DNA of 64,000 nucleotides from contig NC_022521.1 in assembly GCF_000591035.1 (NCBI RefSeq), positions 62,001 to 126,000 on the forward strand, given 5' to 3'. Positions 57,532 through 60,323 of the stretch are shown piece by piece. A program made the position numbers and the translations under genes. A model generated the notes under the pieces. It searched no databases. It saw only the letters and a program-made list of their open reading frames with translations, and was not told the DNA's origin. The stretch comes from Aeropyrum camini SY1 = JCM 12091 (GTDB lineage: Archaea > Thermoproteota > Thermoprotei_A > Sulfolobales > Acidilobaceae). How positions within the stretch are numbered: the stretch's first letter is position 1; each line of letters begins with the position of its first letter.

Positions 57532-58221
57532 TTGGGAAGGCGCTCCATAAGAGAAAGGATAAGCGGTGAAGAGCTGTTAAGGCTCCTCCGCAGATCCCTC
57601 AGGGTTGATTGGAGGGAGTACGTTGCTCTCGTGGCCTACGAGCTTGACGGCAACCCATTCGCTGTACTCGCCGCCATAATATTGAGTCAGAACACCAGCG
57701 ACAAGAACAGTATAAGGGCTTATGAGAGGCTCCGCCGCACTATAGGAGTTACACCCGAGGCTATTCTAAGGGCTAGCTACAACGATCTAGTCGAGACTAT
57801 AAGGGAGGCGGGCCTGCCTAGGCAGAAGGCCTCTGCTCTCAAGGCTCTCGCCGAGGCTGTTATCGAATGGGGAGGGGAAAAGTATCTTCTCGAGGCGCCT
57901 CCAGGAGAGTTGAGGGAAAGGCTAATGTCTATACGGGGCATAGGGCCTAAGACTGCAGACGTTTTCCTGAGCCTAGTGAGGAAGGCGCCAGGCGTTTTCG
58001 CGGTAGATACTCACGCAGCCAGAATAGCGAGGAGGTGGGGCTTGGTAGGTGAGAAAGCTGGGTATGATGAGGTCTCCCGGGCACTCTACAGCTACTTCGG
58101 CCCGGATAATAGCGAGGAAGCCCACAGACTTATCATAGCCCTTGGCAGAACCTACTGTAAAGCCAGGAAGCCGAGGTGCAGAGAATGCCCGCTGAGGAGC
58201 GTGTGCCCGAGTGCCCAATAG
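57532..58221 (+). CDS. nth: Endonuclease III (Nth-family DNA glycosylase/AP lyase)
   Basis: A 229-residue base-excision repair enzyme. The helix-hairpin-helix is SIRGIGPKTADVFLSL, the catalytic Asp lies in FAVDTHAARIARRWGL, and the [4Fe-4S] site is CKARKPRCRECPLRSVC (C-x6-C-x2-C-x5-C). The lysine that defines bifunctional lyases is in IRGIGPKTAD. It removes oxidised pyrimidines and cuts the strand. TTG start at 57532. The next gene overlaps its end by 37 bases. Confidence 0.94.
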   Translation: MGRRSIRERISGEELLRLLRRSLRVDWREYVALVAYELDGNPFAVLAAIILSQNTSDKNSIRAYERLRRTIGVTPEAILRASYNDLVETIREAGLPRQKASALKALAEAVIEWGGEKYLLEAPPGELRERLMSIRGIGPKTADVFLSLVRKAPGVFAVDTHAARIARRWGLVGEKAGYDEVSRALYSYFGPDNSEEAHRLIIALGRTYCKARKPRCRECPLRSVCPSAQ

Positions 58222-58742
58222 CCCTGGTTGTAGCGCAACCTAGGAGGCATGCGTGGGCTGTTGAGGAGGCTTGGGACCTGGCTGTCAGCATAGACGCGGA
58301 GACTTCTAGAGTTTTAGAGACGGGCTATCCTGGCGTCATACTCATATACTCATCCAGGGCTACTCCACTAGATGTTGCTAGAAGGGCTGTAGCTGTGGAG
58401 CTTGGTTTTATACAGAGACTAGTACCTGCAGTCATCTGCAGGAAGATAAGGGGGTCTAGCGAAGCCTATGACGTTGTAAAGGCTGCTCTCCTGATGCTCC
58501 CTCCAGGGACGAGAGAGGTTCTTTTCATATCATCGCTTAGGGGCTCTAGCAAGGGGTTTATTGATGTGACGAGAATTAGAGGGATAATGGAGGCTGCGGG
58601 TGTTAAGCTGGTTAGGAGGGGTGCCCGGGGGGTTGTCGATGTTGAAGGGGTAGACGACATACTCATAGCGTCGGCCGGTATTATTAGGAGGTGTGGTCTT
58701 CGCTGTACACTCGTCCACCCTGTACGCTACGACGTTAAATAG
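58185..58742 (+). CDS. THUMP-like domain protein
   Basis: About 185 residues from ATG 58185, which has GGTG eight bases upstream. The central and C-terminal part (LGFIQRLVPAVICRKI, then TREVLFISSLRGSSKGF and VEGVDDILIASAGIIRRCG) looks like the second half of a THUMP RNA-binding domain, as in Tan1-type tRNA acetylation adaptors, but no catalytic domain follows. This is recognition by pattern, not certainty. It overlaps nth by 37 bases and is therefore probably co-translated. Confidence 0.5.
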   Translation: MPAEERVPECPIALVVAQPRRHAWAVEEAWDLAVSIDAETSRVLETGYPGVILIYSSRATPLDVARRAVAVELGFIQRLVPAVICRKIRGSSEAYDVVKAALLMLPPGTREVLFISSLRGSSKGFIDVTRIRGIMEAAGVKLVRRGARGVVDVEGVDDILIASAGIIRRCGLRCTLVHPVRYDVK

Positions 58743-58801
58743 TATTATTCCGAATACTTTCGCAGTGGTAGGGAAGGCTATTCTTTGGGTGTGCGAAAGT
58801 G
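58741..58801 (+). promoter_or_regulatory. Inverted repeats over the orc start codon
   Basis: ACTTTCGCA (58756-58764) and TGCGAAAGT (58792-58800) form a perfect 9-base inverted repeat with a 27-base spacer; the right arm runs into the GTG start (58799). A second, overlapping pair, AGTATT (58741-58746) and AATACT (58753-58758), lies just upstream. They could be an operator, an origin-binding element or an RNA hairpin masking the start codon. Confidence 0.45.
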
Positions 58802-60031
58802 CTCAGGCACGGTCTTTTCAAGGATAGAAGGGTGTTCGACGAGAACTATATTCCCCCAGAGCTCAGGGTCCGTCGAGAAGAGGCTGAGGCGCTGGCTAGG
58901 ATATACCTCAACAGGCTCGTCTCGGGAGCCGGATTATCTGATGTGAATATGATCTACGGCAGCATAGGTAGGGTTGGTATAGGAAAGACCACTCTGGCGA
59001 AATTTACCGCCAAACGCGTTTCTGAAGCGGCAGGTAAGGAGGGATTAACGGTTAAACAGGCGTATGTAAACGCCTTCAACGCGCCTAACCTTTACACGAT
59101 ACTCAGCCTCATAGTAAGGCAGACGGGCTATCCCATACAGGTGAGGGGTGCCCCGGCGCTGGACATTCTCAAGGCGCTAGTAGATAATCTATATGTAGAG
59201 AATCACTATCTCCTAGTCATACTGGACGAGTTCCAAAGCATGCTCAGCAGCCCACGGATAGCCTCAGAGGACCTCTACACTTTGCTCAGAGTCCACGAGG
59301 AAATACCCTCGAGAGACGGGGTGAACAGGATAGGCTTCCTGCTTGTAGCCAGCGATGTAAGGGCCCTAAGCTATATGAGGGAGAAGATACCGCAGGTCGA
59401 GTCTCAGATCGGCTTCAAACTACACCTACCCGCCTACAAGTCGCGGGAGCTCTACACTATATTGGAGCAGAGGGCTGAGCTAGGGCTTAGAGACACGGTA
59501 TGGGAGCCGAAGCATCTAGAGCTGATAAGCGATGTTTACGGCGAGGATAAGGGTGGGGATGGTAGCGCGAGAAGGGCTATAGTGGCGTTGAAGATGGCGT
59601 GCGAAATGGCTGAGGCCATGGGGAGAGACGGTCTAAGCGATGACCTGGTGAGAAAGGCGGTCTCGGAGAATGAGGCAGCCAGCATACAAACCCACGAGCT
59701 CGAGGCTCTCAGCATACACGAGCTTATAATACTCAGGCTTGTCGCGGGAGCGGCGCTGGAGGGTATGGAATGGATAAACGCTGGACTCCTGAGGCAGCGC
59801 TATGAGGATGCCTCCCTTTCAATCTACAATGTAAAGCCGAGGGGCTATACCCAGTATCATATATATCTTAAGCACCTAACCTCCCTGGGCCTCATAGACG
59901 CCAAGCCTTCCGGTAGGGGGATGAGGGGTAGGACAACTCTCTTCAGGCTGGCACCCCATCTTCCAGCAGATAGGCTTATAGAGGTTGTGGACAGCATTAT
60001 ACAGGCTAAACTGGCCTCGGGCTTCGAATAG
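58799..60031 (+). CDS. orc2: Orc1/Cdc6-family replication initiator (ORC2-like)
   Basis: A 410-residue AAA+ initiator. Walker A is GRVGIGKTTLAK (57-68), Walker B VILDEFQSM near residue 141, sensor 1 LVASDVRAL, and sensor 2 GSARRAIVALKMA near 265; the C-terminal winged helix spans about 310-400 (YNVKPRGYTQYHIYLKHLTSLGLIDA). It closely matches my memory of A. pernix ORC2, whose crystal structure is known. It binds origin DNA and loads MCM. ORB-like origin repeats could not be seen by eye next to it. GTG start lying inside an inverted repeat. Confidence 0.93.
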   Translation: MLRHGLFKDRRVFDENYIPPELRVRREEAEALARIYLNRLVSGAGLSDVNMIYGSIGRVGIGKTTLAKFTAKRVSEAAGKEGLTVKQAYVNAFNAPNLYTILSLIVRQTGYPIQVRGAPALDILKALVDNLYVENHYLLVILDEFQSMLSSPRIASEDLYTLLRVHEEIPSRDGVNRIGFLLVASDVRALSYMREKIPQVESQIGFKLHLPAYKSRELYTILEQRAELGLRDTVWEPKHLELISDVYGEDKGGDGSARRAIVALKMACEMAEAMGRDGLSDDLVRKAVSENEAASIQTHELEALSIHELIILRLVAGAALEGMEWINAGLLRQRYEDASLSIYNVKPRGYTQYHIYLKHLTSLGLIDAKPSGRGMRGRTTLFRLAPHLPADRLIEVVDSIIQAKLASGFE

Positions 60032-60056: not shown

Positions 60057-60323
60057 ATGGTTAAGCTAGAGGATATCATATCCAGCCGGGGAAAGCTCAA
60101 AATACTTAAAGTACTGTTCAGAAGAGGGCAGGCCAATGTAACTATGATAGTTAGGGAGACGGGCCTCCACCACAGGCTTGTCTCCAAGCATATAGAGGAG
60201 TTGAAGGCTGCAAACATAGTAGGGGAACGTCGCTACGGCCGCCTCAGGATAATATATATAAATTATGGAGAGCCTAAGGCGAGGATTCTTAGGGACATAA
60301 TTAGGAGCCTCGATATTTCTTAA
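60057..60323 (+). CDS. Small winged-helix DNA-binding protein
   Basis: An 88-residue winged-helix protein from ATG 60057 (GGTGG eight bases upstream): KLKILKVLFRRGQANVTMIVRETGLHHRLVSKHIEELKAANIV in pieces, then a wing RRYGRLRIIYIN. The fold is ArsR/MarR-like, with no metal-binding cysteines. It follows orc by 25 bases on the same strand, so it is probably co-transcribed and may regulate orc or act at an origin (inference). Its end overlaps the convergent TrmB gene by 23 bases. Confidence 0.8.
   Translation: MVKLEDIISSRGKLKILKVLFRRGQANVTMIVRETGLHHRLVSKHIEELKAANIVGERRYGRLRIIYINYGEPKARILRDIIRSLDIS

Follow-up and report, generated by a model that had tools for sequence, protein, structure and literature searches.

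Judged from sequence comparison, the mirrored pair of short elements at the start of orc2 in Aeropyrum camini is real, and it is kept in related genomes with arms that co-evolve. This inverted repeat is probably an autoregulatory operator of orc2 that ORC2 would bind, and most likely the pair lets ORC2 control its own gene, as its counterpart in Sulfolobus does as part of the response to DNA damage. All coordinates refer to the window, which is the whole stretch of 64,000 nucleotides that was analysed. The orc2 gene (58799-60031, plus strand) encodes a 410-amino-acid AAA+/winged-helix Orc1/Cdc6 protein, and no other in-frame start was found between the upstream in-frame stop and the GTG at 58799-58801. 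The protein was 95% identical to that of genome G027 and matched the solved ORC2 chain 1w5s with an E value of 5e-258. From the first residues of 1w5s, the start of A. pernix ORC2 seems to be set two codons earlier (GTGAAAGTG there, GCGAAAGTG in the window).

The left arm, ACTTTCGCA (58756-58764, plus strand), and the right arm, TGCGAAAGT (58792-58800, which is ACTTTCGCA on the minus strand), are perfect complements with 27 bases between them, and the right arm has two bases in common with the GTG, just as the sequence-only reading had described. The arm cores are ACTTTC and GAAAGT, which face each other 39 bp apart, and each fits the hexamer ANTTTC. The length of the spacer (58765-58791) is kept among relatives, at 38 to 40 bp from arm start to arm start, and its sequence is not; a fixed distance with a changing sequence favors a DNA-bound protein pair. 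The putative promoter is marked by a TATA-like stretch, TTAAATAG (58735-58742, plus strand), which begins 21 bp before the left arm and shares bases with the stop codon of the preceding gene. GTATTAT (58742-58748, plus strand) adjoins this box, with GTATTAC or GTAATAC at that place in relatives. A possible ribosome-binding sequence, GGGTG (58787-58791, plus strand), ends 7 bases before the GTG, and GGGTGT was identical in all four aligned sequences from the genus Aeropyrum. A second pair pointed out earlier, AGTATT (58741-58746) and AATACT (58753-58758), is present as described. It is probably no functional pair, since it is broken in Aeropyrum G081 (AGTATC) and its halves belong to separately recurring elements, one lying in the GTATTA next to the TATA-like box, the other in the flank of ATACTTTCG.

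The exact full repeat pattern had one copy in the 1,595,994-base genome. The whole window held 26 inverted repeats with perfect 9-base arms and spacers of 3 to 60 bases; 20 shuffles gave 12 to 35 of them, with a mean of 20.15. Taken alone, the repeat is therefore near chance and is not rare. Within the intergenic stretch (58743-58801), a repeat of this kind was less to be expected and arose in 1 of 2000 shuffles. The commonness of such repeats in the window would fit an accidental repeat combined with ordinary promoter conservation among close species. However, the spacing is fixed, arm changes compensate across genera, and the pair was absent from all 29 orc1 control upstreams, which makes an accident hardly credible. 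The repeat is judged real because of its conservation among relatives, not because of its presence alone.

Comparison with relatives, the check that had been proposed for this repeat, found the left arm kept in G000, G027, and G081. An exact pair, in which ACTTTC or ACTTCC faces its own complement at 38 to 40 bp, was found in 9 of the first 19 orc2 upstreams and in none of 300 shuffled sets. These 19 and 13 further genomes, one contig being joined at its ends, made up a set of 32 family upstreams. At the same distances, 20 of the 32 had an ANTTYC pair with a score of 9 or more out of 10, compared to 0 of 29 orc1 upstreams (30 loci, with L118 left out as too short), and the 20 upstreams span nine genera. 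Locus L009 has a pair of score 9 outside the range scanned for this count. Locus L135, which had a wrong anchor at a contig end, was kept out of the family counts except those of hexamers by family, 7-mers, and neighbors; L012 and L139 were left out of some counts, and L139 also out of the alignments. The remaining 12 of 32 rows scored below 9, the pair being weak or absent though the protein is kept; they include G087 and G148 (same genus as the window), most of genus g4, G105, G149, and others. In genus g4 (L013, L010, L012), where the 39-bp dyad was weak or lost, a closer repeat of the CTTCC/GGAAG type was seen near the expected place.

Co-evolution of the arms was assessed in an alignment of 17 ungapped rows with a spacing of exactly 39 and a score of at least 8, with one qualifying row (L139) left out. 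At hexamer position 5, C:G occurred in 10 rows and T:A in 5, and at position 3, T:A occurred in 10 and A:T in 3. Arm variants changed jointly, as in ACTTCC/GGAAGT and ACATCC/GGATGT, the latter giving G161 an exact repeat of another sequence. Standard pairs filled 81.7% of arm cells compared to 33-46% with the partner slid, percentages that lean upward because the rows were chosen by spacing and score. The covariation score was 0.306, compared to 0.03-0.12 when slid and 0.206 when shuffled. A fairer measure comes from the re-pairing and slid controls: within one genome the arms agreed at 87 of 102 letters, which was matched by 1 of 20,000 re-pairings. When each of the 7 genera was represented by a single row, 4.8% of re-pairings reached the arm agreement, which is marginal, and neither the pairs changed on both sides nor the number of pair types rose above shuffles in the 17 rows. 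Such co-evolution is the trace that would be expected from one protein reading both half-sites.

The candidate for that protein is ORC2 itself. In a tree of 102 proteins, the ORC2 proteins of Aeropyrum's family and the Sulfolobaceae Orc1-2 proteins formed one side of 67 rows with support 100, and the family Orc1 proteins with two other Sulfolobaceae paralogs formed the other, of 35 rows; the tree was built by a quick method, has long branches, includes 22 hand-picked rows from other families, and leaves out L139. We infer that GTDB family f11 is Sulfolobaceae, because its genomes have three orc paralogs each and its residue numbering fits S. islandicus Orc1-2 at R353, R381, R383, E154, G127, and L128, position 354 being K and not R. 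Two f11 rows were tested, and neither corresponded to Orc1-1 or Orc1-3 of S. solfataricus, the structures of which are solved. On the tree grouping, the identity of f11, and this distinction from Orc1-1 and Orc1-3, Aeropyrum ORC2 is assigned as the ortholog of Orc1-2.

In the available text of PMC9738581, S. islandicus Orc1-2 is a non-initiator that regulates transcription upon DNA damage by binding ANTTTC (DDRE), and it was footprinted on ANTTTC in its own promoter according to earlier work cited there. The same text attributes its specific binding to R381/R383 and the ISM. R381/R383, Walker B E154, and ISM G127 correspond to R376/R378, E144, and G117 in the window protein, all kept. At each winged-helix specificity position, 27 of the 31 ORC2 rows in the family had arginine, and most of the others had K. 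ISM residue L128 was not conserved, being A118 in the window protein and A, S, T, N, V, or I in the family. The earlier suggestion of an autoregulatory operator thus gained ground, since the arms match the hexamer to which the orthologous Orc1-2 binds at the promoter of its own gene, stand at a fixed spacing, and change together.

The mechanism that we propose is as follows. A pair of ORC2 molecules, or a single complex with two DNA-binding parts, would read the two ACTTTC half-sites, one each, through R376 and R378 of the winged helix (the equivalents of R381 and R383 in S. islandicus Orc1-2). These half-sites lie in facing orientation at a distance of 39 bp, in the interval from the TATA-like box to codon 1. 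When bound to them, ORC2 would most likely block the loading or escape of polymerase and keep its own level low, and occupancy would be set by ATP binding and hydrolysis and probably also by DNA damage. The hexamer and the conserved arginines make ORC2 the best candidate binder, and self-repression is favored by the place of the site downstream of the TATA-like box. In archaea, a site located between TATA and codon 1 usually acts in repression. We infer that Aeropyrum ORC2 binds the repeat, does so in pairs, and represses rather than activates its gene; activation instead would be possible, since orc1-2 is damage-induced in S. islandicus (PMC9738581, available text).

Another protein of the locus could be the binder. 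A gene for an 88-amino-acid winged-helix protein (60057-60323, plus strand) is the immediate, conserved downstream neighbor of orc2, and its product could possibly be a co-regulator, a partner, or an alternative binder. If the dyad were its operator, the small protein would repress an operon of orc2 and its own gene as a dimer or tetramer, and ORC2 would not be the binder. Of 33 family loci, 32 had the gene directly after orc2, as did 6 of 8 Sulfolobaceae loci with matches at E < 1e-6, and a dyad would be well suited to binding by a winged-helix dimer. However, small winged-helix dimers usually take close half-sites, not half-sites 39 to 61 bp apart. The half-site is also the hexamer bound by Orc1-2 itself in S. 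islandicus, and the same hexamer controls the Sulfolobus promoters of other genes, as described in the accessible parts of PMC9738581 and PMC5817253, respectively. We regard the small protein as an unlikely, though not negligible, candidate for the binder in place of ORC2. No description of a small winged-helix neighbor of orc1-2 was found in the available portions of the Orc1-2 literature. The upstream gene (58176-58742) is without a Pfam match, yet its place beside orc2 is conserved across much of the family.

The arms could also act in RNA, by pairing as an mRNA hairpin that hides the GTG and limits translation of orc2. The window RNA folded to a hairpin of -21.5 kcal/mol (z -1.81), with 9 of 200 shuffles as good, and same-strand read-through from the upstream gene, possible because the TATA-like box overlaps the upstream stop codon, could carry both arms. 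In contrast, the transcript start expected from the TATA-like box lies near 58762-58766, which would leave the mRNA without most of the left arm. The right arm overlaps codon 1 in Aeropyrum but lies about 20 to 40 bases from it in other genera (approximately 40 in G054, G075, and G163), a hairpin would not require a fixed spacing of 38 to 40 bp, and RNAalifold gave pairs between the arms only and no inner stem. With the distance to the start codon not kept and no inner helix conserved, the hairpin proposed in the sequence-only reading is unlikely as a conserved function, though it may form in A. camini itself, and we consider it very improbable as the explanation of the repeat.

A third suggestion had been an origin-recognition element, at which ORC proteins would start replication. 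ORB boxes, known for A. pernix ORC1 and for S. solfataricus Orc1-1 and Orc1-3, are likewise read by Orc1/Cdc6 AAA+/winged-helix proteins. They often stand as inverted pairs. The Aeropyrum repeat is unlike the ORB-like core that we tested, and no origin is mapped to ORC2. With 2 mismatches allowed, this core occurred at chance level in the window and was absent near 58.7 kb; the GC content is approximately 51%, with no A+T-rich stretch. Archaeal cdc6/orc genes can adjoin origins, as Sulfolobus cdc6-1 and cdc6-3 do (PMC4010727, accessible text). However, the available text of PMC10769869 assigns A. pernix two origins only, both elsewhere, an Orc1-1-dependent oriC1 and a WhiP-type oriC3, and its genome-wide marker frequency gave no further origin. 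We give the origin reading almost no credence.

Across 40 family genomes, the exact dyad occurred at 13 places, 7 of which were the orc2 promoter, with the other 6 in five genomes. Its reversed control occurred at 44 places (summed forward column), and a dyad regulon was rejected on this comparison. A relaxed dyad had 5 places in the six genus genomes, 3 of them the orc2 promoter, and no other dyad place independent of orc was common to more than one of the six. The 9-mer ATACTTTCG was not enriched and was rarer in the genus genomes than its reversed control. Eight other matches to ATACTTTCG in G000, G027, and G081 (L164, L176, L182, L187, L191, L172, L177, L183) all lay inside open frames of more than 120 codons; a ninth, L165, was not within such a frame. 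With regard to sharing of the DDRE by damage genes, neither the dyad nor the 9-mer was over-represented, and single hexamers were too frequent to judge. As the dyad's places are mostly the orc2 promoter and the reversed control is commoner, the dyad is best read as serving orc2 itself and not as a genome-wide element or regulon mark.

The hexamer at orc2 and orc1-2 promoters extends beyond Aeropyrum's family. An order-wide sample of 101 rows was assembled from 88 of 145 genomes that had a match and 13 family genomes; families f6 and f10 and weaker matches are outside it. The exact form A(C/G)TTTC was found upstream of 66 of the 101 genes, in nine families, compared to a summed shuffle mean of approximately 16, although in f3 (7 of 16) the excess only equaled the shuffle maximum. 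In an unbiased count of 7-mers, TGAAAGT was present in 35 of the 101 orc2 upstreams and in 0 of 29 orc1 upstreams. The Sulfolobaceae orc1-2 promoters had a facing pair 60 or 61 bp apart in 14 of 14 cases, one site being upstream of a TATA-like stretch and the other near the gene start. No such pair was found in 16 loci of the two other f11 orc paralogs, of which 4 had a single hexamer. A search with the Sulfolobaceae spacing pattern, limited to AGTTTC, picked up the orc1-2 promoter in 7 of 8 genomes, along with scattered matches elsewhere. In f4, a facing pair stood at 70 bp in 2 of 3 genomes. Spacings of 60-61 and 70 bp exceed 39 bp by about 21 and 31 bp, or approximately two and three helical turns, but three spacing values are too few as proof of helical phasing. 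A tentative extension of the autoregulatory reading is that a facing pair of ORC2 or Orc1-2 might bend or loop its own core promoter between fixed half-sites, at 39 bp in Aeropyrum's relatives, 60-61 bp in Sulfolobaceae, and 70 bp in the two f4 genomes. The pair would then be an ancestral, order-wide, self-limiting switch, and the damage regulon would have come later in Sulfolobaceae.

Replication initiators such as DnaA autoregulate through sites in their own promoters. The Aeropyrum repeat resembles that system in that an initiator-type protein would act on its own gene, and differs from it in having an unrelated site; unlike DnaA, Orc1-2 is a non-initiator in S. islandicus (PMC9738581, available text). 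With the DDRE and the UV-promoter hexamer, as given in the accessible parts of PMC9738581 and PMC5817253, the Aeropyrum repeat has in common the hexamer core, the protein family, the arginines that give specificity, and a position in the promoter of the protein's own gene. In Sulfolobus acidocaldarius, the UV-promoter hexamer is non-palindromic and lies upstream of BRE/TATA at -44 to -39 (PMC5817253, available text). As published in the parts of both papers that were available, the DDRE is single, non-palindromic, and upstream of BRE/TATA, whereas Aeropyrum has two facing hexamers at a fixed 39 bp that lie downstream of the TATA-like box and reach the start codon. By the putative promoter assignment, the left arm is 21 bp downstream of the start of that box rather than upstream of it. 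The kind of system is already known, and what is new is the dyad of fixed spacing and its spread outside Sulfolobaceae. A search by titles and abstract openings, with subscription papers mostly outside its scope, found neither ORC2 autoregulation nor a facing DDRE pair in Aeropyrum; the facing pair of S. islandicus may already have been noted elsewhere.

Although ORC2 of A. pernix, the structure of which is solved, goes by the name of an origin protein, this analysis found no origin link for it. The repeat offers a short, defined DNA target for testing ORC2 as a transcription regulator. If ORC2 is one, autoregulation of the orc type would span the order beyond Sulfolobaceae, and the two natural spacings would help in studying the pairing of an ORC-like AAA+ protein on DNA.

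Two further elements were observed at these promoters. Exact GTATTAC was present in 23 of the 101 orc1-2 upstreams and in 0 of 29 orc1 controls, and it or a near form recurred beside the TATA-like box of orc1-2 promoters in seven families; in a few f1 rows, GTATTAC lay within the end of the upstream gene instead. In f9, orc2 upstreams (L061, L067, L069, L071, L075, and others) had GAAAGTTTC or GAAAGT near a TATA-like stretch, and at several f9 loci two hexamers overlapped as a single short palindrome.
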